Shown here piece after piece: positions 9,712 to 32,306 of a stretch of DNA of 55,217 nucleotides. Below the pieces are notes generated by a model. It searched no databases and was not told where the DNA came from. It saw nothing but the letters and a program-made list of their open reading frames with translations. A program made the translations under genes and the position numbers. The stretch comes from Hyphomicrobiales bacterium (GTDB lineage Bacteria > Pseudomonadota > Alphaproteobacteria > Rhizobiales > Methyloligellaceae): positions 1 through 55,217 of the forward strand of contig JANQLP010000185.1 in assembly GCA_028280515.1 (NCBI GenBank), read 5' to 3'. How positions within the stretch are numbered: the first letter of the stretch is position 1; every line of letters begins with the position of its first letter.

Positions 9712-9740
9712 TTTACGCTCAACTCTGTTGCTTTTACTAT
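9712..9740 (+). promoter_or_regulatory. Putative sigma70 promoter of the Liv-type importer operon
   Basis: TTTACG (-35) and TACTAT (-10) are separated by 17 bases. The -10 element lies inside the operator at 9732-9751, as expected for repression by blocking polymerase. Both hexamers match the consensus at 4 of 6 positions. Confidence 0.35.
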
Positions 9741-9751
9741 CATTAGTACCA
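9732..9751. promoter_or_regulatory. GntR-type operator upstream of the Liv-type operon (TACTA-N4-TAGTA)
   Basis: The core is TACTA-TCAT-TAGTA. The 20-base site matches the perfect palindrome at 31507-31526 at 16 of 20 positions. It lies in the divergent gap between the enolase-superfamily gene and the importer operon, about 97 bases before the first importer gene. Confidence 0.6.
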
Positions 9752-9847
9752 ATTGGGTCGAAGGCGACGTAGGCCTTGAACTCGGGGCCGCTGCAAGCGT
9801 GAGAAAAAGATCGGATTGGACAAGAAACACGGACAAGGGAGGACGCC

Positions 9848-10999
9848 ATGATATCTACATTCAGCAGATATGCGTTGGCGGCAGCAGCGCTGCTCGCAGT
9901 GAGCTTGCCGGCGCAGGCGCAAGACACAATCAATATAGGTGTAACCCAACCGCTCACGGGAGCGGTTGCCGCATCCGGCAACTATGTGGTGCAAGGTGCA
10001 AAAATCGCCGAGGACGAAGTCAACGCATCCGGCGGCGTGCTCGGCAAGAAGATCAAACTGATCATCGAAGACAACAAGAGCAACCCGAAAGAGGCCGTCG
10101 CCACGGCCGAAAAGTTGATTGTCGGCGACAAGGTGCCTGTGATGATGGGTGCCTGGAGTTCGACCTACACGCTCGCCGTCATGCCGAAGCTGATGGAGTA
10201 CGGTGTACCGATGGTCGTCGAGACTTCATCGTCAGGCAAGATCACGAAGTCCGGGAATCCCTGGATTTTCCGCATCAGTCCGACATCCGAAATGGAAGCC
10301 ATATCCTTCGGCAACAAGGTCGGCGATTTCGATATCAAGAAAGCGGACTTCCTGGTCGTGAACAACGACTGGGGCCTCGGCGCCGCGCAAGAGTTCTCCA
10401 AAATGCTGAAGGAGAAGGGCATCGAGGTCGGCGTCATTGAGACCATGGACGCCAAGGCGACTGATCTGAGCGCGCAGTTGGCCAAAGTGAAGGCGTCGGG
10501 CGGTGACACGCTTTTCCTCACCACGGGTGTCGAGCAAATCACGCTCGTGCTGAAGCAGGCAAAGGAGCAGCAGGTCAAGCACAGGGTGATCACCACAGGT
10601 GGGTCATCGTCGCCGGATCAGCTTATCGCTCAGGCCGGAGCAGCAGCCAACGGCAGCAACCATCTGTTGTTCTTCGCGCCCTGGTTCCCGGAAACCGCAC
10701 CGAATCCGGAAGTCGCCAAGAGGTTCGTGGAAGAATGGAACAAGCGTGACCACAACTTCGCAGGCCTGACCGAGGGCTTCCGCGGATATGACGGCGTCAT
10801 GACAATCGTCGAGGGCATCAAAGCCGCCGGCAAAGCCGACCCGAAGGCCATTCAGAAGGCGCTTTGGGACGTCAAGGTAAAGGGCATCAACGGCAATATA
10901 GAGTTCATCAAACAGGGGCCGGCAGGCAAGGAAAGCGGCCAGAACGTCCCGAACGTCTATATTGTGACGATCAAGGACGGCAAGGTCTCGAAGCTCTAG
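9848..10999 (+). CDS. Branched-chain amino acid-type ABC transporter substrate-binding protein
   Basis: This is a 383-residue periplasmic binding protein. A signal peptide of 24 residues ends in PAQA. The LivJ/LivK-type fold follows: INIGVTQPLTGAVAASGNYV, a helix with DEVNASGGVLGKKI, then EDNKSNPKEAVATAEKLI, and the second lobe with DTLFLTTGVEQI. A strong ribosome site (AAGGGAGG) precedes the ATG. Proteins of this family also bind aromatic acids, amides and urea, so the name does not fix the ligand. It opens a five-gene operon. Its operator is shared with the hydroxylase, deacylase, F420 and CoA-transferase units, so it probably imports the substrate of that pathway. Confidence 0.93.
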   Translation: MISTFSRYALAAAALLAVSLPAQAQDTINIGVTQPLTGAVAASGNYVVQGAKIAEDEVNASGGVLGKKIKLIIEDNKSNPKEAVATAEKLIVGDKVPVMMGAWSSTYTLAVMPKLMEYGVPMVVETSSSGKITKSGNPWIFRISPTSEMEAISFGNKVGDFDIKKADFLVVNNDWGLGAAQEFSKMLKEKGIEVGVIETMDAKATDLSAQLAKVKASGGDTLFLTTGVEQITLVLKQAKEQQVKHRVITTGGSSSPDQLIAQAGAAANGSNHLLFFAPWFPETAPNPEVAKRFVEEWNKRDHNFAGLTEGFRGYDGVMTIVEGIKAAGKADPKAIQKALWDVKVKGINGNIEFIKQGPAGKESGQNVPNVYIVTIKDGKVSKL

Positions 11000-11017
11000 C
11001 ATTTTGACGCGAAAAAC

Positions 11018-11116: not shown

Positions 11117-11989
11117 ATGGACCAACTTCTCCAGCATTTTCTGAACGCGATGATATTGGGCGGGACCTATGCCTTGCTTGGTATCGGGTTGACGTTGATA
11201 TTCGGCATCATGCGGGTGGTGAATTTCACCCACGGCGAGCTCTACACGTTCGGCGCCTACATGATGTTCATGTTCGTCATGCCGCTGCATACGAACTTCT
11301 TTATTGCTCTCGTTCTCGCTGTCATGCTCGGCATCGCGCTCGGGGCGCTCATTGAGCTTATCCTGCTCAAGCCCCTGAGGGGCGCCGACATCGACACCAC
11401 GATGCTGATCATGATCGGTGCGTGGATCGCGATGCAGAACATGGAGCAGTTTGTCTGGAGCGGCATCGCCAAGTCGATCGACAACCCGTTCCCGGCAGAA
11501 CCGCTCGTCATCGGTGCGGTATCGGTCTCGTGGAGTCGGGTGTTCGTCTTTGCCGTCGCCTGCGCGCTCATTGCGGGCACATATGCGCTGATCCAGTGGA
11601 CCAAGCTTGGCAAGGCGATGCGCGCCACTTTTCAGGATACCGAGACGGCGGCGCTCATGGGCGTGCGCATCAACACGGTCTACATCGCCACCTTCGCCAT
11701 CGGCTCAGGCCTGGCGGCTGCGGCGGGCGCGCTGCTCGGCCCGATCTTCGTGGTCTATCCGACCATGGGAGACCTTGCTGCGCTGAAGTCTTTCGCGATC
11801 GTGATCCTGGGCGGCCTTGGCAGCGTCGGCGGCGCGACAATCGGCGGCTTTATCTTGGCGATCATGGAGGAACTGGGTGCGGGTTACATCTCCTCCGGAT
11901 ACCGCGACGCCATGGGCTTTCTGCTTATCATCATCATTCTGCTGTTCCGCCCGACGGGGCTGTTCGCACAGAAGGAGCGGATCGGATGA
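11117..11989 (+). CDS. livH: ABC transporter permease, LivH family
   Basis: This is a 290-residue inner-membrane permease with the LivH opening (LLQHFLNAMILGGTYALLGIG, then LIFGIMRVVNFTHGELYTFGA) and late segments MGVRINTVYIATFAIGSGLAA and SFAIVILGGLGSVGGATIGG. I chose the ATG at 11117 because the longer frame would run through the intercistronic stem-loop and adds residues with no membrane or family character. With LivM it forms the channel driven by LivG and LivF. Its stop codon overlaps the LivM start (ATGA). Confidence 0.93.
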   Translation: MDQLLQHFLNAMILGGTYALLGIGLTLIFGIMRVVNFTHGELYTFGAYMMFMFVMPLHTNFFIALVLAVMLGIALGALIELILLKPLRGADIDTTMLIMIGAWIAMQNMEQFVWSGIAKSIDNPFPAEPLVIGAVSVSWSRVFVFAVACALIAGTYALIQWTKLGKAMRATFQDTETAALMGVRINTVYIATFAIGSGLAAAAGALLGPIFVVYPTMGDLAALKSFAIVILGGLGSVGGATIGGFILAIMEELGAGYISSGYRDAMGFLLIIIILLFRPTGLFAQKERIG

Positions 11990-13026
11990 ACCGCCGGCTG
12001 ACCGAGGTCGGGGTTGTGCTCCTCTTTGCCAGCGTGCCGCTGTGGCTCGGCAACCTCTACTATCTGCACATTCTCATAACGACCGGCATTTTCATCATCG
12101 CCGCAATCAGCCTGAATCTGCTGTTGGGCTATACCGGGCAGCTCAGCCTCGGCCATGTCGCGTTTTTCGGGATTGGCGCCTATACCAGCGCACTCATATC
12201 CCTCGGTTTCGACCTTGAGCTGACCGACACCTACACATTTGTATTCGAGCCGAAGCCGGTCTGGGTTTCGTTCCTGTGCGGCATCGTCTTTGCCGCCGTC
12301 TGCGGCTGGCTGATCGGAAAGATCTCGTTCAAGGTGCGCGGCGCCTATTTTGTGATTGTCACGATCAGCTTCGCGGAAGTCGTGCGCCTTGTCTCACTGA
12401 ACTGGGTCGATTTGACCGAAGGTCCAATGGCGCTCAACAACATTCCGCCGCTCACGCTCGGCATTCCGGGGCTTTGGGAGCTGACCTTCTACAAGAAGGA
12501 ACCCAACTACTGGCTGGTACTGGCGCTCTGTGTCTTGAGTTTCGTGATCGTGCGCCGGCTCGTGGAGTCCCGTGCCGGCCGTGCCATGATTGCGCTTCGG
12601 GAAAATGAACCGCTTGCGACATCGGTCGGTGTCGACGTCACAAAGTACCTGGTTCTCGCAACCGTTATATCCGCCGGCATGGCCGGTGCCGCCGGAGGGC
12701 TCTACACCCACTACGTGCGGATCGTCGACCCCGACGTGTTCCTGTTCATCTATACGGTGACGATGGTGATCATGGTGATCACCGGCGGGAAGGGAACCTT
12801 GCTTGGCCCGGTGGTCGGAGGGATCATCTTCGGCATCCTGCCGGAAGCCTTGCGCGGCGTAGCCGGTCCGGAGGTGCAATGGATCATTTACGGCATCCTG
12901 ATGATCCTCATCGTCTACTTTCTTCCTCAAGGCATCGTTCCGGCGCTCTCAAGCTGGTGGCGACAGCGCAAAGGGGGACAGAACCCGCCGGCGCCGACAG
13001 CCGCGGCGCGGGAGGCGGCGAACTGA
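11986..13026 (+). CDS. livM: ABC transporter permease, LivM family
   Basis: This is a 346-residue permease with the LivM hallmark ISLNLLLGYTGQLSLGHVAFFGIGAYTSA near residues 38-65, the GAYFVIVTISFAEVVRL segment, and AIALRENEPLATSVGV-type cytoplasmic loop residues that contact the ATPases. The C-terminus has GGKGTLLGPVVGGIIFG. The protein ends in a short Pro/Ala-rich tail. It overlaps LivH by four bases and LivG by one base, so all are translated as one unit. Confidence 0.94.
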   Translation: MNRRLTEVGVVLLFASVPLWLGNLYYLHILITTGIFIIAAISLNLLLGYTGQLSLGHVAFFGIGAYTSALISLGFDLELTDTYTFVFEPKPVWVSFLCGIVFAAVCGWLIGKISFKVRGAYFVIVTISFAEVVRLVSLNWVDLTEGPMALNNIPPLTLGIPGLWELTFYKKEPNYWLVLALCVLSFVIVRRLVESRAGRAMIALRENEPLATSVGVDVTKYLVLATVISAGMAGAAGGLYTHYVRIVDPDVFLFIYTVTMVIMVITGGKGTLLGPVVGGIIFGILPEALRGVAGPEVQWIIYGILMILIVYFLPQGIVPALSSWWRQRKGGQNPPAPTAAAREAAN

Positions 13027-13847
13027 TGGCCAGGCAACCGGTACAGGAAAAGGCGTTGAGCGTCGACGGGCTGACGGTCAGGTTCGGTGGCCTGACTGCC
13101 ATCAATTCCATGACGTTCGACGTGCATGAAGGCGAGGTTTTGAGTCTGATCGGCCCCAACGGGGCGGGCAAGACAACCGCCTTCAATGCGATCACCGGCT
13201 ATCTGAAACCCGCAGCCGGAAACATCGCGTACCGCGGCGCCCATCTCGTTGGATTGAAGCCCAACCAGATCGCCGATCTGGGCGTGGTGCGCACGTTTCA
13301 GAAAACCAGCGTATTCGGCGGACAGACCGCTTTCGATAACGTTCTGATGGGGTTGCACCGCCGCCAGAAGCAGACCGCCCTGGAGATTATTTTCGGCCTG
13401 CCGAGTGTGCGCTCGGAGGAGCGGGCGATGCGGGAGAAGGCGGGCGAAGTGCTCGATTTCGTCGGGCTCGGCGGTCGCGCGAACGAACTGGGAAGCGCGT
13501 TGCCTTACGGAGAGCAGCGGTTGCTCGAGGTCGCCATTGCGCTGGCAGCACGTCCCAGCCTGCTGCTGCTTGACGAACCTGTATCGGGCATGAATCCGTC
13601 GGAGACCGCCAGCTTCATGGAAATGCTGGGCGCGATTCGCAAGCTCGGCATCACTGTGCTCCTGGTGGAACATGACATGAAGATGGTGATGGGGGTTTCC
13701 GACCGAGTGGTGGTGCTCAACTATGGTTCGATCATCGCCAACGGCTCACCCGCAGAGATTCAGAAGAATCCGGACGTTATCCGTGCCTATCTCGGCGAAC
13801 GCCATCGCAAGACCAAGTCACATACGAAAGGAAAGAGACGTGCTTAA
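13026..13847 (+). CDS. livG: ABC transporter ATP-binding protein, LivG family
   Basis: This is a 273-residue ATPase with Walker A GPNGAGKT (43-50), the LivG-type signature LPYGEQ (159-164) in place of LSGGQ, and Walker B LLLLDEP (179-185). It ends with the switch histidine in LLVEHDMKMVMG. It powers the importer with LivF. I chose the ATG at 13026, which overlaps the LivM stop; the longer frame adds about 49 residues of unrelated sequence. Confidence 0.95.
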   Translation: MARQPVQEKALSVDGLTVRFGGLTAINSMTFDVHEGEVLSLIGPNGAGKTTAFNAITGYLKPAAGNIAYRGAHLVGLKPNQIADLGVVRTFQKTSVFGGQTAFDNVLMGLHRRQKQTALEIIFGLPSVRSEERAMREKAGEVLDFVGLGGRANELGSALPYGEQRLLEVAIALAARPSLLLLDEPVSGMNPSETASFMEMLGAIRKLGITVLLVEHDMKMVMGVSDRVVVLNYGSIIANGSPAEIQKNPDVIRAYLGERHRKTKSHTKGKRRA

Positions 13848-14544
13848 GGTTGGCGGACTCTCCTGTGCCTACGGCAAGGTCATGGCGGTCCGCGACCTGA
13901 CCATGGAAGTGCGTCAGGGTGAACTCGTAACCCTGATCGGCGCAAATGGGGCGGGCAAGACGACGACGCTGAAGGCGATTTCGGGCGTGCTCGCGCCGCT
14001 GGCGGGGCGGATCGAGTTTGAGGGTGAGGACATTACCGGTGCCTCGGCGCGCACGGTTCTGGAGAAGGGCATCGCCCATTGTCCCGAGGGACGGCGCATC
14101 TTTCCCTACATGACCGTGCGCGAGAACCTGGAGATGGGGTGCTTTTTACGCAATGACGCGCAGGCGATTTCCAAGGACCTGGAGGGTATCTTTGAGCGTT
14201 TCCCGATCCTTTACGAGCGTCGGACCCAGGCGGCAGGTACGCTGTCAGGCGGCGAACAGCAGATGCTGGCGATCAGCCGGGCCCTTATGTCACGGCCACG
14301 CCTCATTCTGTTCGATGAACCGTCGCTCGGCCTGGCGCCAAATCTGGTGGAGCAGACATTCGATATCGTCGAACGGATTCGCGCGGACGGCGTGACCGTG
14401 GTTATGGTCGAACAGAATGCGCTCGCCGCGCTGGAGCTGTGCGACCGTTCCTACGTGCTGGAATCGGGTGAGGTGACGTTGACCGGCACAGGCAATCAGC
14501 TTCTCAAGAACAAGAAGGTGCAGCAGGCCTATCTCGGCGGCTAG
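13840..14544 (+). CDS. livF: ABC transporter ATP-binding protein, LivF family
   Basis: This is a 234-residue ATPase with Walker A GANGAGKT (34-41), signature LSGGEQ (135-140), Walker B LILFDEP (155-161), the typical LivF stretch GIAHCPEGRRIFPYMTVREN and the late VMVEQNALAAL. The start is a GTG at 13840 with GAAAGAG close before it, overlapping the LivG stop by eight bases. It closes the importer operon and runs head-on into the hydroxylase small-subunit gene, with the two stop codons overlapping by four bases. Confidence 0.95.
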   Translation: MLKVGGLSCAYGKVMAVRDLTMEVRQGELVTLIGANGAGKTTTLKAISGVLAPLAGRIEFEGEDITGASARTVLEKGIAHCPEGRRIFPYMTVRENLEMGCFLRNDAQAISKDLEGIFERFPILYERRTQAAGTLSGGEQQMLAISRALMSRPRLILFDEPSLGLAPNLVEQTFDIVERIRADGVTVVMVEQNALAALELCDRSYVLESGEVTLTGTGNQLLKNKKVQQAYLGG

Positions 14545-15770
14545 CCCGGTTTGCGTCCGAACAGACGCGTAAAGAAGCTCCGGAGCCGGTCCCAAAGGAC
14601 GGACAGAACAAGCGAGCCGGCATTGAGCGCCTGCGCCCCCTGTTCGACGTCGCGACCCTCCAGTTTCGCTTCAAGGTTCTGCGCGAATGCGCCGGCCAGC
14701 CGGTTGACGAGATTGCGGACGATTGCGCCGCGGCTGAACTGCGCCAGCGGACCAGCGAGCGAGTAGGCGATCGAGACGGCGATGAGCGTGCCTTTGCCGT
14801 CATCGGTCTCGGTGAGTTCGTATTCGACGCGGCCGCGCGCCAGCGAAGCGCTGCGTGCGTCGCGGCCCTTGCCGTCGATGACGCCACGCCAGTTGTCGGC
14901 ATCGCGTGTTACATCCGCTTCGCCCTTCAGATCGGCATTGATCGGACCAAGTTTGACGAGCATGCGCCCGTCCACGTGACCGTCCCGGGCCGGACCATCC
15001 AGAGAAACGCCCGGCATGCAGGTTGCCACCTTCTCGATGTCCGCCATCAGGTTCCAGACGGCATCGCGCGGGTGGTTCACGGTGATCGTCTGGGTGAGTT
15101 TGGTAAAGCTGCCGTCCTGGGTAATCTCGCCGGTCTGCACGTTCATGCCGGACGGGCTTGCGAGTGTCGGTGCCGCGGCCCGGGCCGCGCGCTGTTCTTT
15201 TTGCGCAGGCGACGTCACGTTGCCCCGGGTTTCGCGCAGACTGTCCTGCGCGGCGGGGCCGGGCGCGGGGCCCAGCGCATCGGCGGACACAGCCGTCTTC
15301 TCGGAGACTTCATGGTCGCAGGCCACCGCCGCGATGGCCTTGACGATCCCCACATAGCCGGTGCACCGGCACAGGTTCCCGCTCATGCCGACACGGATCG
15401 CGTCTTCATCACGCGCCGCACCGCGGCGCACGAGATCGCGCGCGGCGACAAGCATGCCCGGTGTGCAATAACCGCACTGGAGTGCGTGTTCGGCTGAAAA
15501 CGCGTGGCGCAGCTTCTTCATCAACGGATCGTCGTCGAAATCCTCGATTGTGCGGATCTCCGCGCCGTCGCAGGTTACCGCATAGGTGATGCAGGACCTT
15601 GCGATCTCGCCGTCGATGACGACCGTGCAGGCCCCGCAGATGCCGTGTTCGCAACCCACATGCGTGCCGGTCAGAACGAGATCCTCACGCAGAAAGTCGG
15701 CGAGATTGGTCCGGGGAGCGACCTCGCGCGTGACCTTTGTCCCGTTCACGGTCAGCGTGATACGGGTCAT
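14541..15770 (-). CDS. Molybdenum hydroxylase iron-sulfur subunit fused to a CoxG-like SRPBCC domain
   Basis: Two modules lie in one 409-residue chain. Residues 1-155 are the small subunit of xanthine-dehydrogenase/CO-dehydrogenase enzymes, with plant-type [2Fe-2S] ligands Cys40, Cys45, Cys48, Cys60 and the second cluster ligands Cys99, Cys102, Cys134, Cys136. After a linker rich in Ala and Pro, residues about 215-375 resemble CoxG (SRPBCC fold): ITVNHPRDAVWNLMADIEKV and CMPGVSLDG. A C-terminal amphipathic stretch ends in FFTRLFGRKPG and could touch the membrane. CoxG is usually a separate protein that links the enzyme to membrane quinone. The fusion suggests electrons pass to the quinone pool at the membrane, which is inference. 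The gene overlaps the medium-subunit gene by four bases. Confidence 0.88.
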   Translation of the reverse strand: MTRITLTVNGTKVTREVAPRTNLADFLREDLVLTGTHVGCEHGICGACTVVIDGEIARSCITYAVTCDGAEIRTIEDFDDDPLMKKLRHAFSAEHALQCGYCTPGMLVAARDLVRRGAARDEDAIRVGMSGNLCRCTGYVGIVKAIAAVACDHEVSEKTAVSADALGPAPGPAAQDSLRETRGNVTSPAQKEQRAARAAAPTLASPSGMNVQTGEITQDGSFTKLTQTITVNHPRDAVWNLMADIEKVATCMPGVSLDGPARDGHVDGRMLVKLGPINADLKGEADVTRDADNWRGVIDGKGRDARSASLARGRVEYELTETDDGKGTLIAVSIAYSLAGPLAQFSRGAIVRNLVNRLAGAFAQNLEAKLEGRDVEQGAQALNAGSLVLSVLWDRLRSFFTRLFGRKPG

Positions 15771-22281: not shown

Positions 22282-23046
22282 ATGGCATCGCAATACACAG
22301 TCATGGGCATCGAGAACGTGCCGTTGATTGCGGCTGGAGACGATCTTGCGGCCATCCTGATCGCCGCGGTCGATGCTCAGGGCCTCCGGCCCGTAGACGA
22401 CGACATCCTTGTCGTGGCGCAGAAGATCGTTTCGAAGGCGGAGGGTCGATTCGTCGATCTTGCGACCGTGGAGCCGTCCCCGGAGGCCGTGGAGCTCGCT
22501 CGGACATCTGAGAAAGAGCCCTGTCACGTCGAACTGATCCTGCGCGAGTCCAACGAGTTGGTACGCGCCAAGCCCGGTGTGATCGTTGTCGAACACCGTC
22601 TCGGGCACGTGCTGGCCAATGGGGGTATCGACCGTTCGAACGTCGAGGGGCAAGCTGGTGGAGAGACGGTTCTGTTGCTGCCTGCCGACCCCGATGCCAG
22701 CGCCGCAGCCCTCAAGGCACAGTTCGATGCCCACTGGTCGTGCAATCTTGGCGTGATCATCGCCGACAGCGTCGGACGGGCATGGCGTATGGGAACAGTC
22801 GGCATTGCCATCGGCGCCGCCGGTGTCGCAGCTCTCGATGATCAGCGGGGCAATCCCGATCTGTTTGGCCGGGCCATGGAAACCACCATGACTTGTCCCG
22901 CCGACACCATTGCGTCCGCCGCATCGCTCGTGATGGGTGAGGGCGCCGAGGCGATTCCTGCGGCTCTCGTGCATGGCATTGCGTGCGGAACGCCTGCTCC
23001 CGCACGCACAATCAACAGACCCAAGGCTGAGGACATGTTCCGTTGA
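22282..23046 (+). CDS. cofE: Coenzyme F420-0:L-glutamate ligase
   Basis: This 254-residue protein matches CofE throughout: MGIENVPLIAAGDDL, ILVVAQKIVSKAEGR, HVELILRES, NGGIDRSNVEG, GVIIADSVGRAWRMGTVGIAIGAAG and GRAMETTMTC. CofE adds glutamates to F420-0 using GTP. In mycobacteria the same domain is fused to an FMN nitroreductase-like domain (FbiB) that reduces dehydro-F420-0. That second domain is absent here. The gene overlaps cofD by four bases. Confidence 0.95.
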   Translation: MASQYTVMGIENVPLIAAGDDLAAILIAAVDAQGLRPVDDDILVVAQKIVSKAEGRFVDLATVEPSPEAVELARTSEKEPCHVELILRESNELVRAKPGVIVVEHRLGHVLANGGIDRSNVEGQAGGETVLLLPADPDASAAALKAQFDAHWSCNLGVIIADSVGRAWRMGTVGIAIGAAGVAALDDQRGNPDLFGRAMETTMTCPADTIASAASLVMGEGAEAIPAALVHGIACGTPAPARTINRPKAEDMFR

Positions 23047-24029: not shown

Positions 24030-27000
24030 GTGACATTATCGCTGTTGTTCCGATGAAACCGCTGTTGCAGGCGAAAAGGCGGCTTGCCGGCGTGCTCCCC
24101 GAGAAGGCACTTGGGATGCTTGTCCGCCGCATGCTGGTCCGGGTCGTCTCGGCGCTTGGCGATGCGCGCAGCGTCGAACACGTCCTGGTTCTGACGGCGG
24201 ATCGTGAACTGGCCGACCTGGCGGGGGCACATGGGGCCGGGCATATTTCCGAGGCGCGCGCCGCCGGCTTGAACGCGGCGGTCGCGAATGCCGCGCGTCG
24301 GGTTCACGGTCTCGGTGCCGACGCCATGCTCGTTCTGCCCGGTGATGTGCCGCTGGTGACCGGCCCGGACATCGACGCCTTCGTTGCTCGCGCGAAAGGC
24401 AAGGGCGTGGCGATTGTCCCCGCTGACGACGGTGACGGGACGAATGCGCTGTTGCTTGCGCCGCCCGGTGTCGTTGCACCCGCATTCGGACCCGGCAGTT
24501 TCGAAAAGCACAGACAAGCGGCGAGACGGGTCGGTCTCGAGCCACAGGTGCATGTCTCCGACGCGATATCGCGCGACGTCGACACGGCATCGGATCTTCG
24601 CTGGCTGGAGAAAAGCGCTGCGCATTTGCCGGAATTCGCAGACATTCTGGCGCAAGAGCGGCGGCTTGGCAGGGCAGTCGGCGGTTTCGATCCGGTTTCC
24701 GAAAGACCATCGCTCATGCCCGTTCGTCGTGGCGACGGGCTTGCCGCGGACGAGGCTCTGGCACTCACCGATTGCAACGATCTTGACCGGCTCTGCGATA
24801 TGGCCGAGGAGCGGACGCTTGCCGGTTTTGGCGAGCGGGTCAGCTTTTCCAAAAAGGTCTTCATCCCGCTGACCAAACTCTGCCGCGACGTGTGCCACTA
24901 CTGCACCTTCGCACAGACACCGGGGAAGATCGAACAGGCCTATCTTTCCCAGGATGACGTGTTGAACATCGCGCGCGCTGGCGCTGCCGCGGGGTGCAAG
25001 GAGGCCCTGTTCACGCTCGGCGACAAACCGGAATTGCGCTACAGGGCGGCGCGCGACGCTCTCAATGCACTCGGACATGACAGTACGTTGTCCTATCTGG
25101 AGAGTGCCGCACGGCTTGTATTGAAAGAGACCGGATTGCTGCCGCACCTCAATCCGGGCGTCATGGACGAAGACTGGTTGGCGCGCCTGCGCGCTGTGTC
25201 CGTGTCGCAGGGGATCATGCTTGAATCTGTCTCCCCCAGGCTGATGCAGAAGGGCTTTGCGCACCATGGTTCTCCGGACAAGGCCCCACATGTGCGGATG
25301 GCAACGCTGGAGGCGGCGGGAGCCGCGCGCGTACCCTTCACCACCGGGCTGCTCATCGGGATTGGCGAGACACGGGCGGAACGCATTGAGGCCCTGCTGG
25401 CGATCCGCGCGTGCCATGAGCGTTACGGCCATATCCAGGAAATCATCATTCAGAACTTTCGCGCCAAGCCCGGAACCCGTATGGCGCAGGCTGAAGAGCC
25501 GACGCTCGAGGAGCACGTTTGGACCATTGCGGTTGCGCGGCTGATTTTCGGGCCCGACATGAACATTCAGGCGCCGCCGAACCTGCGGGCCGGGGCGCTG
25601 GCGCAACTCGTGCGCGCCGGCATCAACGACTGGGGCGGCGTATCGCCGGTGACGCCCGACCATGTCAATCCGGAAGCGCCCTGGCCCCATCTCGACCAAC
25701 TGGCCGAGGAGACAGATCGCGCAGGCCGCGTCCTCACTGAGCGCCTGGCGCTTTATCCTGAGTATGTGCGCAGCGCGCAGGATTGGGTGGAGCCACGCGT
25801 TCACACCGCGCTCCTCGAACACGCAGATGCGGAAGGGCTTGCCAGGGAAGAGGACTGGTTGGCCGGATCGACAACTCCGCCACCGGACAGGGGACCCCGG
25901 GCTCCGGCGCTAAACCTTCGTCATCGCGCCGTCGCGCGCGCGCTCGATGCTGTTGCCAACGGGCGGCTGGATGAAACCGCCATTGCCAGGCTCTTTACGG
26001 CGCGCGGCGCGATCTTCGACGACGTGGCGTCAGCTGCCGACGACCTGCGGCGGCGGCGAAATGGCGACACGGTCACCTACGTCGTCAACCGCAACATCAA
26101 TTACACCAACCTGTGTACCTATGGCTGCCGGTTCTGCGCCTTCTCCAAGGGCCGTATTTCTCAGGGTCACCGCGACAAACCTTACGATCTGAGCTTGGAG
26201 GAAATCGCGCGCAGAACGTCGGAGGCTTGGGAGCGGGGCGCCAGCGAGGTCTGCCTGCAGGGCGGTATCGGCGCGCGCTACACGGGCGACACCTATATGG
26301 CGATCGTCAAGGCGGTCAAGGCGGCGGCGCGGGATATTCACGTCCACGCCTTTTCACCGCTTGAGGTCACACATGGCGCGGAAACGCTCGGGCTGCCCCT
26401 TGAGGAGTATCTGGCGGGGCTGCGCGACGCCGGCCTTTCGAGCCTGCCGGGAACGGCGGCCGAAATTCTCGATGACGAGGTGCGCCGTGACCTGTGCGCC
26501 GACAAGATCGATACCGCCCAGTGGCTCAAGGTCATGGAAGCGGCGCATGGCGTCGGCCTGCGTTCGACGGCAACCATCATGTTCGGACATATCGACGGTT
26601 ACCGGCATTGGGCGCGGCATCTGCTGCGCGTGCGGGCACTTCAGGAAAAAACCGAGGGCTTCACCGAATTCGTACCGCTGCCCTTTGTGCATATGGAAGC
26701 GCCGATCTACCTCAAAGGCGAGTCGCGGCGCGGGCCGACGTGGCGCGAGGCGGTGCTGATGCATGCGGTCGCGCGGCTGGTGCTTGACCCGGCGATCGTC
26801 AACATTCAGGCTTCGTGGGTGAAACTCGGCGCAGAGGGGGCGGCGCGTTGCCTGTCCGCGGGCGTCAACGATCTCGGCGGCTCGCTTATGAACGAGTCCA
26901 TCACGCGCGCTGCCGGTGCCGTGCACGGACAGGAGATGACACCCGACCGGTTGATCGCAACCATCCGGGCGGCGGGCCGGACGCCCATGCTGCGCAACAC

Positions 27001-27088
27001 GCTATACGGCATGATCGGGGATCGGGACATGCGTGAACGCGAACCGGATGTTTTGCCGGTTTCGCTGCGATTGGCCGCGGCAGAATAG
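24026..27088 (+). CDS. fbiC: Three-domain fusion CofC-CofG-CofH (guanylyltransferase plus Fo synthase)
   Basis: This one 1020-residue chain has three modules. Residues 1 to about 205 resemble CofC/FbiD, the guanylyltransferase that activates the F420 tail (VVPMKPLLQAKRRLAGVL, LVLPGDVPLVTG, DGDGTNALLLAPPG). Residues about 230-560 form the CofG radical SAM half, with Cys286, Cys290 and Cys293 (CRDVCHYC). Residues about 635-1020 form the CofH radical SAM half, with Cys697, Cys701 and Cys704 (CTYGCRFC). CofG+CofH in one chain is the bacterial Fo synthase FbiC; the added N-terminal CofC is unusual. I chose the ATG at 24026 overlapping the cofD stop. With CofD and CofE it completes the path from tyrosine and the pyrimidine precursor to F420. 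Confidence 0.94.
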   Translation: MSDIIAVVPMKPLLQAKRRLAGVLPEKALGMLVRRMLVRVVSALGDARSVEHVLVLTADRELADLAGAHGAGHISEARAAGLNAAVANAARRVHGLGADAMLVLPGDVPLVTGPDIDAFVARAKGKGVAIVPADDGDGTNALLLAPPGVVAPAFGPGSFEKHRQAARRVGLEPQVHVSDAISRDVDTASDLRWLEKSAAHLPEFADILAQERRLGRAVGGFDPVSERPSLMPVRRGDGLAADEALALTDCNDLDRLCDMAEERTLAGFGERVSFSKKVFIPLTKLCRDVCHYCTFAQTPGKIEQAYLSQDDVLNIARAGAAAGCKEALFTLGDKPELRYRAARDALNALGHDSTLSYLESAARLVLKETGLLPHLNPGVMDEDWLARLRAVSVSQGIMLESVSPRLMQKGFAHHGSPDKAPHVRMATLEAAGAARVPFTTGLLIGIGETRAERIEALLAIRACHERYGHIQEIIIQNFRAKPGTRMAQAEEPTLEEHVWTIAVARLIFGPDMNIQAPPNLRAGALAQLVRAGINDWGGVSPVTPDHVNPEAPWPHLDQLAEETDRAGRVLTERLALYPEYVRSAQDWVEPRVHTALLEHADAEGLAREEDWLAGSTTPPPDRGPRAPALNLRHRAVARALDAVANGRLDETAIARLFTARGAIFDDVASAADDLRRRRNGDTVTYVVNRNINYTNLCTYGCRFCAFSKGRISQGHRDKPYDLSLEEIARRTSEAWERGASEVCLQGGIGARYTGDTYMAIVKAVKAAARDIHVHAFSPLEVTHGAETLGLPLEEYLAGLRDAGLSSLPGTAAEILDDEVRRDLCADKIDTAQWLKVMEAAHGVGLRSTATIMFGHIDGYRHWARHLLRVRALQEKTEGFTEFVPLPFVHMEAPIYLKGESRRGPTWREAVLMHAVARLVLDPAIVNIQASWVKLGAEGAARCLSAGVNDLGGSLMNESITRAAGAVHGQEMTPDRLIATIRAAGRTPMLRNTLYGMIGDRDMREREPDVLPVSLRLAAAE

Positions 27089-27164: not shown

Positions 27165-28118
27165 CTATGCGGCCCGCAACTTGGGCAGTATTTCGTTTGC
27201 GATCAGTTCGACCTGGTCGTCCTGATAGCGGTAGGGAACGAAAATGATCCGGTCGATGCCGGTGTCGAGGTGTTCCTTCAACTGCTCCACGCATTCATCG
27301 ACTGTGCCGATGATGGCGCTGTCGGGCGTCGATTTGCTCCAGCTTGCAAAGTCCCACTCGGTGTTGAGCCACTCCAGCATGTCGGCTTCGACCTTGTCGC
27401 GTTCGCCGACAATGATCGGGAGCTGGTTGGTCGACTGAAGCGTGTCGGGGTCTTTTCCGCCTTCCTCGGCAAAGGAGCGGATTTTCGCCCAGTCTTCGGA
27501 AAAGCCCTCCGGCGTATAGAAATATGTCAGCCATCCATCGCCTCGAAGCGCGGCGCGTTTCAGCACCGCATCGACGTATCCGCCGATGAGGATTGGCGGG
27601 CGGGGCTTCTGGTACGGCTTGGGAAACATGACCGATTCGCGCATGTTGTGCGGCGGGAACTCGCCTGACACCATGTCCTCGGTCCACAGGCGCTGCAGGA
27701 TCTCCAGGTTTTGATCCATGATCTTGCCGCGCTTGTGGAAATCGATCCCGACGGCGTCGAACTCGCGCTTATACCAGCCTGACGCCATGCCGAGGACGAG
27801 GCGGCCCTTGGAGATCTGGTCCATGCTCGAAAGCTGCTTGGCAAGCACAAGCGGATTACGCAGCGGCAATACGAGGATGCCTGTGCCCAGCTTGATCTTC
27901 TCGGTGCGCGCCGCTACTGCGGTGAGCAGGGAAAGCGCGTCGATAATGGGGAAATGCGGATCGACGCCGAGCAGGATGTGATCCCACACCCACACGGACT
28001 CAAATCCCAGTTCCTCCATGCGCACGCCGTACTCGATGAGCTGCTGCGCGTCCGGCAGGTCGGGGAACGCCTGGAAGTTGCGCATCGCGATGCCGTATTC
28101 GGTCTTGTTCTTTGCCAT
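27165..28118 (-). CDS. LLM-class F420-dependent oxidoreductase
   Basis: This 317-residue luciferase-like TIM-barrel protein has YGVRMEELGFESVWVWDHI, KIKLGTGILVLPLRNPLVLAKQ, DQISKGRLVLGMASGWYKREF, and RPPILIGGYVDAVLKRAA. The family uses F420 or FMN; the variant here is of the F420-dependent type, and its place next to an F420 operon agrees with this. It reduces or oxidises an organic substrate with hydride from F420H2. The ATG at 28118 has GAGGGG before it; the longer frame is not supported. It is the last gene of a four-gene minus-strand operon with the CoA-transferase and the PLP enzyme. Confidence 0.9.
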   Translation of the reverse strand: MAKNKTEYGIAMRNFQAFPDLPDAQQLIEYGVRMEELGFESVWVWDHILLGVDPHFPIIDALSLLTAVAARTEKIKLGTGILVLPLRNPLVLAKQLSSMDQISKGRLVLGMASGWYKREFDAVGIDFHKRGKIMDQNLEILQRLWTEDMVSGEFPPHNMRESVMFPKPYQKPRPPILIGGYVDAVLKRAALRGDGWLTYFYTPEGFSEDWAKIRSFAEEGGKDPDTLQSTNQLPIIVGERDKVEADMLEWLNTEWDFASWSKSTPDSAIIGTVDECVEQLKEHLDTGIDRIIFVPYRYQDDQVELIANEILPKLRAA

Positions 28119-28155: not shown

Positions 28156-28926
28156 TCAGGCGGTGTACAGGCGGTCCGGATCGAGATTTCGCAGCACCGC
28201 GAGTTCGTCCCTCTGAGGTGGTTCGGTGCGCCCGACGTGATCCGGGATGGTAATGTCGAACCCGGTGTTATCGCGCACCTCGTCCGGATCAACGCCCGGG
28301 TGGAGCGCAAGCACCTTCATCTCCCTGGTCTCGTCGTCGAAACCGAGAATGGCGAGGTCCGTAACGACCCGGTACATGCCGCCGGCAATCAGCCCGCTAT
28401 CGGTACGGCTGGAACCGCCGTCGATGAAGCCCGGACTGGTGATGAAATCGACCTTGTCGACGAAGCGGCGCTTTTCGTGCTTCATGGCGACAATCATCTG
28501 GGTCAGGCTCGAGATATCGTTGCCGCCGCCCGTTCCCGGCAGGCGGATTGCCGGTTTTTCCGGGTCGCCGATATAGGAGCTGTTGAGATTGCCGTAGCGG
28601 TCGATCTGCGCGCCGCCCATGAACCCGACATCAATGTAACCGCGCTGGAGCAGCAGCAGCACATCGGTGATCGGCAGCACCATGTTGGCGCGTCGGGTGC
28701 AGCGTTGCTCGTTCGTTGACGGCGGCAGTTCGCCCGGCACGACGAACGGCCCGATCACGCCACCTTCGAACAAGATGGTGAGGCCGGGTGCATGGACGCC
28801 CTGCGCCAGAGTCGCGGCGAGCAGGGGAATGCCGACACCGGCAAAAACAATCTGCCCGTCCTTCAGGATGCGCCCACTCATGACCGCGAGCAGCTCGGAT
28901 GCCGTGTAGTTCTTGCGCTCAGTCAT
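28156..28926 (-). CDS. CoA-transferase family I, beta subunit (glutaconate CoA-transferase/IpdB-like)
   Basis: This 256-residue protein has the beta-subunit pattern: DGQIVFAGVGIPLLAATLA, ILFEGGVIGPF, GFMGGAQIDRYGNLNSSYIG, and GTGGGNDISSL. Glu54 in LFEGG stands where the catalytic glutamate of glutaconate CoA-transferase beta is found. Its presence favours true CoA transfer over the hydrolase-type activity of IpdAB. The ATG at 28926 overlaps the alpha gene by eight bases. With the alpha subunit it would activate or release an acid as its CoA ester. Confidence 0.87.
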   Translation of the reverse strand: MTERKNYTASELLAVMSGRILKDGQIVFAGVGIPLLAATLAQGVHAPGLTILFEGGVIGPFVVPGELPPSTNEQRCTRRANMVLPITDVLLLLQRGYIDVGFMGGAQIDRYGNLNSSYIGDPEKPAIRLPGTGGGNDISSLTQMIVAMKHEKRRFVDKVDFITSPGFIDGGSSRTDSGLIAGGMYRVVTDLAILGFDDETREMKVLALHPGVDPDEVRDNTGFDITIPDHVGRTEPPQRDELAVLRNLDPDRLYTA

Positions 28927-29890
28927 TGTAAATGCTCCGTCCGCGCCGGCTTGCATCGACGAGAGCCCCCGCCCCGAGTTGGTCGAGATAATCCGCCCAG
29001 TCCGACGGGCCATGGTAGAAGTCGTCGATGTATTTCTTGATGCCGCGTTCAGGATCCTTCTTGGTCTGGTCGGCGAGTGCATCCATGTGGTCGAAGAAAG
29101 GCTCGTATACGCCGTAGCACTCGTGCGGAGCTGAGCCATACGGCACCTCGACCACCGCATCGACCGTGAAGAAGGGAATACGGGTGTGGTCCGGCCTGCG
29201 GCGGATGCTGTCGTTGGAAACGATCTGCTCGGTGGTCAGGATCACGCGGTTGGCCGCCATGGCGATGTCGATATCCATGAACTGGAGCCCGTCGAGTTGG
29301 GCGTTGCCGTAGGCATCCGCCCGTTGCACGTGTATGAGGGCGACGTCGGGGTTGAGCGCGGGCAGGGCCAGCAGGCGTTCGCCGGTAAAGGGGCAGGTGA
29401 CCTCTTTCACTTCATCACCAAGGCGCTCATTGACTCCCGACCCGATCATCGAGCGCACGGGTATATAGGGAATGCCCATGGCGCCGGCCCGGTACCGCAG
29501 GCCAATCGACATGTGGCTCCATTCGTCGAATCGTGCCGCGTCGCTCTCGGTATAGTGGCGCATGACCTTGGAGACACCCCACACGATCCCCTGGCTGAAC
29601 CAGCTCGTGATTACGTGATTACTGATGCCCGAGCCGTACAGGACCTCGCCTTCCGACGACATGATGCTGCGCGAAACGACGAGGTTTTTCTTCTTCGCCC
29701 GGACCAGCGCCCAGATCATTGCCGTTGGCGTACGCGACATGGTGCAGCCACCGAGGGCCACATGATCGCCGTCCGAGACGAACGACGCCGCCTCCTCAAG
29801 CGACATGACTTTTTCGCGCAGGCCCCGGTCGCGCTCGGCTGTGCGCCGCCGTAACTCCAGGTGGGGCAATACGAGTGTTTCTTCAGCCAT
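28919..29890 (-). CDS. CoA-transferase family I, alpha subunit (glutaconate CoA-transferase/IpdA-like)
   Basis: This 323-residue protein has the alpha-subunit features MSLEEAASFVSDGDHVALGGC, SRTPTAMIWALVRAKKKNL, the tyrosine- and glycine-rich middle with GSGVNERLGDEV, and ALNPDVALIHVQRADAYGNAQ. GGGAGAG precedes the ATG at 29890. It forms a pair with the beta subunit, which overlaps its 3' end. The alpha chain is longer than the beta, as usual in the family. The acid and CoA donors are not known. Confidence 0.87.
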   Translation of the reverse strand: MAEETLVLPHLELRRRTAERDRGLREKVMSLEEAASFVSDGDHVALGGCTMSRTPTAMIWALVRAKKKNLVVSRSIMSSEGEVLYGSGISNHVITSWFSQGIVWGVSKVMRHYTESDAARFDEWSHMSIGLRYRAGAMGIPYIPVRSMIGSGVNERLGDEVKEVTCPFTGERLLALPALNPDVALIHVQRADAYGNAQLDGLQFMDIDIAMAANRVILTTEQIVSNDSIRRRPDHTRIPFFTVDAVVEVPYGSAPHECYGVYEPFFDHMDALADQTKKDPERGIKKYIDDFYHGPSDWADYLDQLGAGALVDASRRGRSIYND

Positions 29891-29924: not shown

Positions 29925-31433
29925 TCACGCGGCGGCCGATCGCGTGTCCTTGTTGAAGCGCATGATCAACTCGTCCCAGATCGGTATGAGGTCGTGAAGG
30001 CCGCGCCAGAATGACTGGTCGCGGCGTTTGTCGAAATCGGCAACGGAAATGCCCTGCTGCTCGACCCAGGTGTAGTAGCCGAGATTGAACATGCGGTTGC
30101 GGTCCACCTCGTCCGTCTCCAGCACATGGTCGGTGGCAACGCTCTGCAGATGCGCGCCACACAGCTGCGCCGCGCCGTCGGAGTCGACACCGTCCCATCC
30201 CAACTTATGCAGCGTTCGCGCCTTTTCGGTCTCGTACATGGAGGCCGGATCGGTTGCGACCGTGACGATCACATCCTGCTCTTTGAGGTTGAGATACTTC
30301 GCCAGCTTGATGGCGGCGAGCATGTTGCAGATGCTCGACAGGCCGAAATACTGCAGCGCCGATACGATGCCTGCGTCCACGCCTTTGCGTTGCGAGAGAT
30401 AGCGCTGACCTTCCGCGGAGTTGAACAGGACATTGAGCCCGTCCGTCGCGGCGTCCGGGACGGCGATGACGAAATCGCTGTTCGTCACGTTGTGAATGAG
30501 CGGTACGTGCTTGTCGCCGATGCCCTGGATGTTGTGTTCGCCATAGCCGTTATAGAGAAGCGTCGGACATTCAATCGGCTCCACGACCGCAATGCGGGCC
30601 GACAGCTTGTCCTTCAGATAGTCGCCGGCGCCAAGGGTGCCGGCCGAACCGCTCGCTGCGACGAATGCCGTCAGCCTCGTGTCGGGACTATCTTCCTGAA
30701 TATCTTCAAACACGCGCCGCAGAGCAGGACCTGTGCAGGCGTAGTGGCCGAGGTAGTTTCCGAACTCAGAGAACTGGTTGACGATCTCGTTGTCCGGATT
30801 GCGTTCGAGCTCGGAGCACTTGTCGTAAATCTCCTTGACGTTGCTTTCGGTTCCGGGCGTGCGAATGATATCGGCCTCGTCCGCGACCCACGCTTTCAGC
30901 CAGTCGAAGCGTTCCTGGCTCATGCCTTCGGGCAGCACGGCAACGCCCCTGCAGCCGAGAATGCGGGAGATGGCAATGCCGCCGCGGCAGTAGTTCCCGG
31001 TCGACGGCCATACCGCGCGCTGTCGCGACGGGTCGAACCGGCCGGTCACCAGACGCGGTGCGAGGCACGCATAGGCCGCGAGCACCTTGTGCGCGTTGAT
31101 CATCGGGAAGTTGGCGCCCAATGCAACGACGATCTTTGCCGGGACACCGGTCAGGCTTTCCGGAAGCACGATATGGGCAGGTGTTCGCGCCAAACCCTTG
31201 CGGTCCGGCGCATTGTACCAATGCACGCGGAACAGGTTCGCCGGATCGGCGGCATCGGGATCTACAGACATGAGGCTCGAACGCAAGGTGTCGGGCAGGG
31301 CGAACGGGTCCGCGAGCTGCGCGAATGTGGGCAGTGTTACGCCGTTCTCGCCGAGCCGCGCGACCGTCTGGCGATAGACCTGCTGATCGTCTATTTCGGT
31401 TGGAAAATCGAAAGGCCCCATTACGTGTTCCAC
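29925..31433 (-). CDS. PLP-dependent fold type II enzyme (cysteine synthase/threonine dehydratase superfamily)
   Basis: This 502-residue protein shows the fold type II layout. A lysine in PMINAHKVLAAYACL (Lys116) is placed to bind PLP. The substrate loop STGNYCRGG (144-152) follows, then SRILGCRGVAVLPEGMSQE, and a glycine-rich phosphate loop AASGSAGTLGAGD. Family members eliminate or replace a beta substituent of amino acids. It is longer than standard cysteine synthase or threonine dehydratase, and I do not recognise a named enzyme. The start is a GTG at 31433 or an ATG at 31421. It is the first gene of the operon behind the perfect palindromic operator at 31507. An amino-acid intermediate in the pathway is therefore likely. 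Confidence 0.82.
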   Translation of the reverse strand: MEHVMGPFDFPTEIDDQQVYRQTVARLGENGVTLPTFAQLADPFALPDTLRSSLMSVDPDAADPANLFRVHWYNAPDRKGLARTPAHIVLPESLTGVPAKIVVALGANFPMINAHKVLAAYACLAPRLVTGRFDPSRQRAVWPSTGNYCRGGIAISRILGCRGVAVLPEGMSQERFDWLKAWVADEADIIRTPGTESNVKEIYDKCSELERNPDNEIVNQFSEFGNYLGHYACTGPALRRVFEDIQEDSPDTRLTAFVAASGSAGTLGAGDYLKDKLSARIAVVEPIECPTLLYNGYGEHNIQGIGDKHVPLIHNVTNSDFVIAVPDAATDGLNVLFNSAEGQRYLSQRKGVDAGIVSALQYFGLSSICNMLAAIKLAKYLNLKEQDVIVTVATDPASMYETEKARTLHKLGWDGVDSDGAAQLCGAHLQSVATDHVLETDEVDRNRMFNLGYYTWVEQQGISVADFDKRRDQSFWRGLHDLIPIWDELIMRFNKDTRSAAA

Positions 31434-31506
31434 TCGCTCCTGCGTGTCCCCGCCAGAACCATCAATTCGCCCTGTCTGTTGGCTTCACTCTTGGCAATTG
31501 ATATGG

Positions 31507-31526
31507 TTGTACTAATATTAGTACAA
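31507..31526. promoter_or_regulatory. Perfect 20-base palindromic operator (best copy of TACTA-N4-TAGTA)
   Basis: TTGTACTAAT is followed directly by its own reverse complement, giving a perfect 20-base palindrome. It lies in the divergent gap between the PLP-enzyme operon (minus) and the DUF1989 gene (plus), so one bound dimer could control both. Weaker copies lie at 9732, 18992, 21264 and 21454. A second small inverted repeat, GTATCAATGATAC, follows at 31530-31542. Confidence 0.7.
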
Positions 31527-31670
31527 CTAGTATCAATGATACATTACGCGACGCAACCCCTTTGCGTGGAAAAACAGTTGGTAAGGCGGTGATTGTGCCG
31601 AAGGTGAGATCAGATTTCGGGCGTTTGCCGTGACATGGCATGCATTGGCAGGGGATGAGGACACAATTTC

Positions 31671-32306
31671 ATGACTGAAGGGCAAATGACAATTCCGGGG
31701 CAGGTGATTGAAGATACCGTTGTGCCTGCCTGTGAGCCGTGGAGCGCGGAGGTGCGCAAGGGAGATGTTGTCCGTCTGGTCGACATTGAAGGGCAGCAGG
31801 CGGTGGATTTTCTCTGTTACGACCTGGCCGACAGGGCAGAGCGCTATAACGCTGCCAACACGATCAAGCTCAACAACAACATCTATCTCGGGCAGGGGAC
31901 CGTTCTCTGGTCGGTGCGCGCGCGTCCGATGATGACGATCATTGCCGACACCTGCGGATCCCATGACACATTGTACGGGTGCTGTTCGATCGAGATCGAC
32001 CGCGTCCGTTTCGAGAAGGAGAACAGTTGGGGTTGCCAGCAGAATTTCGAGAAGGAACTTGCCAAGCACGGCATGGGCGAAAAGGACATCGCCGCGAACG
32101 TGAATTTCTTCATGTACGTTCCGGTTCGTGAAGACGGGCAGATCGCGATTGCAGACGGCCTTTCCAAGCCCGGCGACTATGTGGACCTGATGGCGGAACG
32201 AGACGTACTGGTCATCATTTCCAATTGCCCCGAACGGGACAATGCCGCCGCCGGTTACGAGCCGACACCCGTCCGGGCTATCGTTTACACGCCGGCAGAT
32301 TGCTAG
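31671..32306 (+). CDS. DUF1989 (urea carboxylase-associated type) protein
   Basis: This 211-residue protein of the DUF1989 family has VRLVDIEGQQAVDFLCYDL, ERYNAANTIKLNNNIYLGQG, a central TCGSHDTLYGCCS, and a late MYVPVREDGQIAI. Members of the family often sit next to urea carboxylase or amine and amide catabolic genes; their biochemical role is poorly defined. Conserved Cys and His residues in the middle suggest metal binding. It is divergent from the PLP/CoA-transferase/LLM operon and shares its operator. That points to a role in the same pathway, perhaps in handling released nitrogen. Confidence 0.85.
   Translation: MTEGQMTIPGQVIEDTVVPACEPWSAEVRKGDVVRLVDIEGQQAVDFLCYDLADRAERYNAANTIKLNNNIYLGQGTVLWSVRARPMMTIIADTCGSHDTLYGCCSIEIDRVRFEKENSWGCQQNFEKELAKHGMGEKDIAANVNFFMYVPVREDGQIAIADGLSKPGDYVDLMAERDVLVIISNCPERDNAAAGYEPTPVRAIVYTPADC

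Follow-up and report, generated by a model that had tools for sequence, protein, structure and literature searches.

We analysed a 55,217-nucleotide stretch of DNA (the window) from a Hyphomicrobiales bacterium, comprising contig JANQLP010000185.1 (C49 in our numbering) of the 5.41 Mb, 98% complete assembly GCA_028280515.1, and consider it likely that positions 9,732-32,306 hold a dedicated catabolic regulon that makes its own cofactor F420 for one hydride-transfer step in the degradation of a nitrogen heterocycle. The computed evidence comprises gene content, operator sharing, co-occurrence and repeated operon linkage. Pfam and NCBIfam searches revealed an importer, a molybdenum (Mo) hydroxylase, a GntR regulator, an M20 deacylase, an F420 operon, an LLM-class oxidoreductase, a CoA-transferase, a pyridoxal-phosphate (PLP) enzyme and a DUF1989 protein. 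Every gene type named in an earlier note on this DNA was recovered in its place, and three features were added: an Fno gene heading the F420 operon, a CofC-CofG-CofH fusion, and a GntR-UTRA regulator within the cluster. The same note's guess at an alphaproteobacterial origin agrees with the closest relatives by locus, three metagenome-assembled genomes (MAGs; L092-L094) of Hyphomicrobiaceae/Hyphomicrobiales, whose LLM proteins are 91-96% identical to that of the window.

Results

F420 biosynthesis, F420 reduction and the LLM oxidoreductase

The F420 genes and the adjoining LLM gene are as follows.

21586-22254, plus strand: Fno / NpdG, NADPH:F420 oxidoreductase (TIGR01915, 195.9 bits; cut-off 149.8)
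22282-23046, plus strand: CofE, F420-0:glutamate ligase, 254 aa (TIGR01916, 253.5 bits; cut-off 180.65)
23043-24029, plus strand: CofD (TIGR01819, 291.4 bits; cut-off 257.45)
24026-27088, plus strand: CofC-CofG-CofH triple fusion, about 1,020 aa (TIGR03552, TIGR03550 and TIGR03551, all over cut-off)
27165-28118, minus strand: LLM-class oxidoreductase of the TIGR03619 F420-dependent family, proposed hydride transferase (199.4 bits; cut-off 166.9)

F420 synthesis had been described as complete-looking, and CofC, CofD, CofE, CofG and CofH all exceed their curated NCBIfam cut-offs. Within the fusion, CofC scored 143.8 bits (cut-off 105), CofG 496.8 (cut-off 213.35) and CofH 546 (cut-off 374.1), and the CofG and CofH parts each carry the radical-SAM CX3CX2C motif (CRDVCHYC and CTYGCRFC, respectively). 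The host genome has a single CofD match, the copy in this locus. The stand-alone CofE, at 254 aa, lacks the C-terminal reductase domain of FbiB (a separate FbiE elsewhere was not searched for); with CofE lacking this fused reductase, the F420 tail may be made by a 3-phosphoglycerate route, by a lactate route or with an unlinked FbiE.

The LLM protein is the sole match to PF00296 (luciferase family) found in the host genome, and its family assignment suggests that F420 is its cofactor. No other F420 user was found in the genome with PF04075, the sole other family tried, a search in which the positive controls were also silent.

An operator shared by the transcription units

A palindromic operator, named in the earlier note as common to these units, precedes four of them, including the F420 operon. 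The sites and the candidate reader are listed below.

9732-9751, unstranded: operator copy 5' of the importer, core TACTATCATTAGTA at 9735-9748 (mismatches 2/14 in the core, 4/20 in full)
18992-19011, unstranded: operator copy 5' of the Mo hydroxylase operon (3/20 mismatches; aligned in L092-L094)
19079-19834, minus strand: GntR-family (UTRA) regulator, candidate operator reader (PF00392, 61.9 bits; PF07702, 29 bits)
21267-21280, unstranded: weak operator-like site 5' of the M20 gene (3/14 mismatches; aligned in alignment A2)
21454-21473, unstranded: operator copy 5' of the F420 operon, core 21457-21470 (2/14 mismatches; 5/20 to the full palindrome)
31507-31526, unstranded: perfect operator palindrome TTGTACTAATATTAGTACAA between the PLP/CoA-transferase/LLM operon and the DUF1989 gene (0 mismatches; aligned in L092-L094)

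Allowing up to 3 mismatches, the core palindrome TACTAATATTAGTA occurs at 5 sites in the window, where shuffled sequences predict 0.05. At a limit of 2 mismatches the whole 5.41 Mb genome yields 5 sites. Four of them fall in the 22 kb of this locus, 5' of the importer (9735), the hydroxylase (18995), the F420 operon (21457) and the LLM operon (31510); the reversed pattern, run as a control on the same genome at the same limit, gave 3 sites. The fifth genomic site overlaps the end of a frame that, judged by eye, resembles an Mrp/Nuo membrane subunit, and is probably a chance match. The full palindrome TTGTACTAATATTAGTACAA, with up to 3 mismatches, is found in the whole genome just at 31507 and before the Mo hydroxylase operon.

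In L092-L094 there are aligned counterparts of the hydroxylase, M20, F420 and LLM sites, often changed on both arms (for instance TTGTCC...GGAC in L094). A palindrome stands 5' of each unit and is kept in the three closest relatives, the importer site aside; the stretches of L092-L094 end within the hydroxylase gene, and conservation was assessed in these three. The GntR gene sits between the hydroxylase and deacylase genes, a position that makes its product the putative protein binding the palindrome. Around the perfect site (alignment A3, window 31496-31533), the flanks AATTGATATGG and CTAGTAT are identical in all four genomes, perhaps marking a promoter or a second protein site.

Co-occurrence of the LLM family with F420 synthesis

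In a separate scan we collected 76 LLM loci, and 74 of the carrier genomes could be searched (L098 and L132 were left out). Carriers include Kaistia, Aminobacter, Afipia, Labrys, Azospirillum and Sinorhizobium. CofD was matched at E 1e-40 or better in 71/74 carrier genomes and over the cut-off in 69/74, the latter being the safer count, as CofD matches at E 0.001 also appear, below cut-off, in controls such as E. coli. The two sub-cut-off matches are fragments in the genomes of L114 and L149 (E 6e-71 and 1e-40), both of which have CofH over cut-off. The class background is far lower, with CofD over cut-off in 58 of 385 sampled genomes. Within that sample the LLM family (E 1e-80 or better) occurs in 6 genomes, the host's own included, and all 6 are CofD-positive over cut-off; three of them (G007, G229 and G312) recur among the 74 carriers. 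Excluding the host's own genome, 5/5 LLM carriers are CofD-positive against 57/384 overall (p about 6e-5 by hand arithmetic, ignoring kinship). The LLM family and F420 synthesis co-occur near-obligately.

Some carriers have more than one CofD gene. The genome of L166, a MAG (G457), has three over cut-off, that of L131 has two, both over cut-off, and that of L120 has two matches, one of them below cut-off.

Linkage in relatives

The stretches fetched around the 76 LLM genes span 3.9 to 21 kb, so that the linkage counts are lower bounds; genes in them were called with a codon-scored caller written for this analysis, which missed one importer ATPase of the window. F420 synthesis or Fno genes lie within the stretch in 46/76 loci, and in 38 of the 48 loci with at least 20 kb. 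The earlier note had named consistent absence of F420 genes from the same neighbourhood as an outcome that would count against it, and these numbers show that they are not consistently absent. Together with the operator before the F420 operon, kept in imperfect form in three relatives, and the CofD matches of the carriers, they support its central claim that one regulon makes and uses F420. In 24 of the 76 loci the LLM gene belongs to the same co-directional run as the F420 genes, with gaps below 350 bases. The run in Afipia reads PxpA-Fno-CofE-CofD-CofC-CofGH-PALP-CoAA-CoAB-LLM-Sda-importer, and that in Kaistia reads ATPase-Fno-cof-PALP-CoAA-CoAB-LLM-M20-PntAB-CoxLMS-GntR.

CoA-transferase subunits A (71/76) and B (73/76) accompany the LLM gene, mostly directly beside it, followed by the large PLP enzyme (44), Fno (40), M20 (39), CofD (37), the Mo large subunit (36) and GntR (33). 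PxpA is present in 21 loci, directly beside Fno in 17 of them. Other recurrent genes, whose names rest on one representative per cluster, are diaminopropionate ammonia-lyase (16/76), PntA (12), L-serine ammonia-lyase (11), PxpC (8), PxpB (7) and fused HyuAB (5). Several unrelated cyclic-amide openers, and several enzymes deaminating a 2,3-substituted propionate, adjoin the same core, a pattern to be expected if the product of the core is a reduced cyclic amide whose ring has to be opened and whose nitrogen has to be removed; a transhydrogenase near Fno fits a supply of NADPH for F420 reduction.

On a CofH tree, the LLM-linked rows require 7 label changes, compared with a mean of 24 for shuffled labels (0/500 as low). 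A 21-row clade, mostly Hyphomicrobiales, is wholly linked, and the four-row clade containing the window lies apart from it; the starred branches of the tree may be compatible with a single origin. The tree was built quickly, without bootstrap, from 71 of 137 sources whose CofH and CofD segments cover at least 80% of the query, and 'linked' denotes that the stretch contains an LLM match with 55% identity or more. As L047 is the contig of L161 and L056 that of L106, the 35 LLM-linked rows represent 33 distinct ones, and the genomes of three 'unlinked' rows (L054, L069 and L078) carry the LLM gene elsewhere.

The LLM gene is also present on 11 Sinorhizobium plasmid records, predicted to be conjugative. 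In the one record that was read, pSymA of S. meliloti R28, we found the block with transhydrogenase genes and a PyrC-like gene at its upstream end. In this record (L168, CP130049.1), the diaminopropionate ammonia-lyase frame at 31462-32760, beside the binding protein, is broken by an in-frame stop; both this frame and a nearby open CofE frame are missing from the gene table, which is incomplete.

A variant block recurs in Nitrospinota and other MAGs (L101, L102, L104, L105, L107, L119 and L162), where the CoA-transferase/M20/LLM/PLP operon is reordered and a LysR gene, UbiD decarboxylases and another LLM protein are added. In most of these loci the operon is followed by genes for the importer and the Mo hydroxylase, and the stretches contain no F420 genes. 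Near the LLM gene of L126, L134 and L149 there is in each case a pair of genes for a biotin carboxylase and a carboxyltransferase.

Other catabolic genes and flanking regions

The remaining genes of the locus are the following.

9848-10999, plus strand: periplasmic substrate-binding protein of a LIV/HAAT-type ABC importer (PF13458, 215 bits; at least 50% identity in 20/76 LLM loci)
11117-14544, plus strand: two importer permeases and two ATPases (11117-11989, 11986-13026, 13026-13847, 13840-14544; PF02653, PF00005, PF12399)
14541-15770, minus strand: Mo hydroxylase 2Fe-2S subunit fused to a CoxG-type domain (PF01799, PF00111, PF06240)
15767-16603, minus strand: Mo hydroxylase FAD subunit (PF00941, 162.7 bits)
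16600-18942, minus strand: Mo hydroxylase large subunit (PF20256, PF02738, PF01315), loop PYRGVARTGVCFAMEL
19970-21250, minus strand: M20 ArgE/DapE-family deacylase (TIGR01910, 288.5 bits; cut-off 217.6; in 39/76 LLM loci)
28156-28926, minus strand: CoA-transferase subunit B, glutaconate-CoA-transferase type (PF01144; 1poi_B, E 5.5e-49)
28919-29890, minus strand: CoA-transferase subunit A (PF01144, 105 bits)
29925-31421, minus strand: 498-aa PLP enzyme of cysteine-synthase/CBS-type fold with extra N- and C-terminal parts (PF00291 and fold matches; in 44/76 LLM loci)
31671-32306, plus strand: DUF1989 protein related to urea-amidolyase-associated proteins (PF09347, 212 bits; TIGR03424, 248.5 bits, below the cut-off of 284.7)

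The solved structure nearest to the Mo large subunit is quinoline 2-oxidoreductase (1t3q_B, E 2.9e-143). We rejected aerobic CO dehydrogenase for the Cox-like genes, which fall below its cut-offs (552.6 vs 950 and 484.2 vs 991.15 bits) and whose loop reads PYRGVARTGVCF; the active-site loop of CO dehydrogenase is AYRCSFR. CoA-transferase subunit B keeps the glutamate of glutaconate CoA-transferase, which we take to be the catalytic residue, and an aligned mycobacterial CoA-transferase-like protein has aspartate there. Fold searches placed the PLP enzyme in the general cysteine-synthase/CBS group, with no narrower assignment.

Directly upstream of the importer, on the opposite strand (5414-9551), are a muconate-cycloisomerase/mandelate-racemase-family enzyme and a TRAP transporter. 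Downstream, 33030-44348 holds co-directional TctCBA, PdxA-like, MaoC, IclR, CoA-transferase, FAD dehydrogenase, DHDPS-like and aldehyde dehydrogenase genes, which probably form a catabolic unit of their own, and 45284-54361 encodes a protein of about 3,025 aa with DUF5801 repeats and cadherin-like and RTX domains, probably a secreted adhesin.

Discussion

A proposed pathway

The order of reactions, the class of substrate and the induction of the regulon ('on demand') are what we infer from these data. A GntR-type regulator, as the putative reader of the palindrome, would govern four or five transcription units: the importer, the Mo hydroxylase, the deacylase, the F420 biosynthesis-and-reduction operon and the LLM/CoA-transferase/PLP operon. 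The importer would take up an N-heteroaromatic compound, and the Mo hydroxylase would put oxygen adjacent to the ring nitrogen. CofG/H, CofC, CofD and CofE would build F420, which Fno would reduce using NADPH; the LLM enzyme would then transfer the hydride to the ring of the hydroxylated compound, which the CoA-transferase may first have turned into a CoA thioester. An ATP-dependent lactamase, linked in many relatives and unlinked in the host, could open the reduced ring, after which the M20 enzyme would strip an N-acyl or carbamoyl group and PLP enzymes would free ammonia and a keto acid.

No single substrate is named, because none of the schemes that we worked through fits all the conserved genes. 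The recurrence of PxpA and HyuAB had suggested 5-oxoproline, which as sole substrate has no need for the Mo hydroxylase, F420, the M20 enzyme or the diaminopropionate lyase. Schemes for pyrazinoate, imidazole-carboxylate, picolinate, homarine and heterocyclyl-alanine, worked by reasoning alone, likewise leave conserved genes unexplained.

Evidence against the proposal and alternative explanations

Several observations weigh against a dedicated F420-making regulon for heterocycle degradation. Among the four core sites in the locus, the one preceding the F420 operon matches least well, and it is an imperfect palindrome in all four aligned genomes, with 4/20 mismatches in L092, 6/20 in L093 and a decay to about 7/20 in L094 (counted by hand, the scan of the relatives having a limit of 6 mismatches). 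In 13 loci from more distant lineages, a simple palindrome scan gave no motif shared in this way. Genes for M20, GntR and the Mo large subunit each appear in just 33-39 of the 76 loci, within stretches of limited length, and the F420 genes are missing from the stretch in 10 of the 48 long loci. The carrier genomes of L097, L165 and L167, all MAGs, show no cofD and no CofH over cut-off, that of L097 showing a weak, short match to the CofH C-terminus. The window's own regulon contains no ring-opening enzyme; in favour of the proposal, the host genome encodes a fused HyuAB on another contig, 60-62% identical to the LLM-linked HyuABs over 926-1,014 aligned residues. Finally, the predicted structure of the LLM protein (LLM fold, pLDDT 94.4) matches F420 and flavin mononucleotide (FMN) enzymes alike, with a luciferase as the top Foldseek match.

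The last point bears on the cofactor, and the first phmmer match of the LLM protein is a luciferase as well. As LLM folds accept either cofactor, the enzyme might use FMN, and the F420 operon might serve an enzyme encoded elsewhere. We regard this as improbable: the protein passes the TIGR03619 cut-off, it is the only LLM match of the genome, cofD accompanies it in 71/74 carriers, and no other F420 user was found, though by the PF04075 search (the sole other family) that had no working positive control. A different position for the LLM step within the same regulon is a possibility that we take seriously while thinking it rather unlikely. The ring would then be opened first, and the enzyme would act on an open-chain product, a CoA thioester or an imine formed with the help of the CoA-transferase, whose two subunits are the commonest LLM partners counted (71 and 73 of 76), mostly adjoin the LLM gene, and include a subunit B resembling glutaconate CoA-transferase, an enzyme of an open-chain C5 acid. 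Lactam-opening enzymes and a quinoline-type hydroxylase nearby nevertheless suit a cyclic substrate, and in the available text of PMC8498797 the F420-dependent picrate reductase, a luciferase-like hydride transferase (LLHT), adds hydride to an aromatic ring.

That F420 is a housekeeping trait with catabolic genes as chance neighbours appears very improbable. The over-cut-off CofD of 58/385 sampled class members fits such a trait, as does the lack of this LLM gene inside the stretch in 57 of 59 cofD neighbourhoods from the class sample; the shared operator, the co-directional run in 24 loci, the clustered linkage on the CofH tree and the plasmid-borne block all argue for a functional tie, and the four other genomes of the host's order listed in the class sample have no cofD over cut-off. 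Membership of the reductive uric acid pathway (XdhD, YgfK, SsnA, HyuA, YgeY, YgeX), for which an F420 variant has been proposed in Chloroflexota, would explain the similar types of step: a Mo enzyme, reductive dearomatisation, ring hydrolysis, an M20 enzyme and, in some relatives, a diaminopropionate lyase. We give it very little credence and rejected it, since neither an SsnA-type amidohydrolase nor a HyuA dihydropyrimidinase (both PF01979), nor a carbamoyltransferase, is present among the window proteins that were scanned, PF01979 having been sought in the window alone. Of the M20 and diaminopropionate lyase pair, the window has the M20 enzyme; its PLP enzyme falls in a different PALP subfamily, and the lyase occurs in 16/76 relatives. 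Furthermore, the gene list of that pathway, in the portion of PMC12507026 available to us, has no CoA-transferase and no 5-oxoprolinase-type enzymes.

Implications

Returning to the F420-making regulon, we advance more tentatively, and with some doubt on balance, a broader proposal: that it is a mobile module in which F420 is made just when needed and solely for a single LLM enzyme, which would dearomatise a hydroxylated N-heterocycle by hydride transfer, perhaps in the form of its CoA thioester, ahead of ATP-dependent lactam hydrolysis. If so, this reductive, F420-driven route for N-heterocycles would explain why F420 occurs in trace amounts or in particular niches in many Proteobacteria, and it would underlie the nodule competitiveness that is linked to F420 in some S. 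meliloti strains.

The locus and its relatives offer, for one group, a specific and testable answer to the question of why Proteobacteria synthesise F420, namely a cofactor built as part of one catabolic regulon, and the recurrence of the package in many other bacteria suggests one reason why such bacteria make F420. They point to a previously unassigned and probably reductive N-heterocycle pathway whose carriers include named strains, and they link scattered hits of a nodule-competition association study in S. meliloti (PMC8407117, in the text available).

Comparison with known systems

We found no description of F420 dedicated to one catabolic regulon in the open-access literature, a scope outside which a 2017 survey of F420 in soil bacteria falls. 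F420 itself is already known from Alphaproteobacteria, in trace amounts in Oligotropha and Paracoccus, and these producers share with our locus the biosynthetic gene types, an FbiC-type fusion and Fno (PMC8498797). The accessible sections of that 2021 review predict Fgd in alphaproteobacterial producers, assign F420 there no use, and count the reason for F420 synthesis in Proteobacteria among unanswered questions.

A genome-wide association study of S. meliloti nodule competitiveness (PMC8407117) reports, in the parts available to us, an 'fbi operon' hit. Its listed hits include CofD, FbiC, a LIV importer, GctAB, a luciferase-family protein, M20, a Mo-binding subunit, PntAB, diaminopropionate lyase, PyrC and GntR, alongside unrelated genes; its authors discuss each hit as a function in its own right and do not settle what F420 is for. 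The hits match the gene types of our block, which we saw as a single block in pSymA of strain R28, a strain that those parts do not name among the study strains; strain GR4 of the study carries the LLM gene on a plasmid.

The reductive uric acid pathway, in whose Chloroflexota variant a putative F420 luciferase-family reductase is proposed, resembles the locus in its Mo enzyme, reductive dearomatisation, ring hydrolysis, M20 enzyme and 2,3-diaminopropionate lyase (PMC12507026, in the text seen). Our locus differs in having no SsnA-, HyuA- or YgeW-type protein among the scanned window proteins, and in having CoA-transferase, DUF1989 and F420 synthesis genes; its relatives have 5-oxoprolinase-type enzymes.

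Picrate and dinitrophenol degraders possess an npd gene cluster that includes Fno, and in actinobacterial picrate degraders F420 synthesis is part of general metabolism. As described in the available part of PMC8498797, picrate degraders grow by a pathway in which an F420-dependent LLHT, Fht, transfers hydride from F420H2 onto an electron-poor aromatic ring. This LLHT ring hydride transfer of actinobacterial picrate and dinitrophenol degradation is the likeness to the role proposed here for the LLM enzyme. Unlike in the picrate degraders, the F420 operon of our locus has the operator of the catabolic units in front of it, and its counterparts in relatives lie inside catabolic operons.

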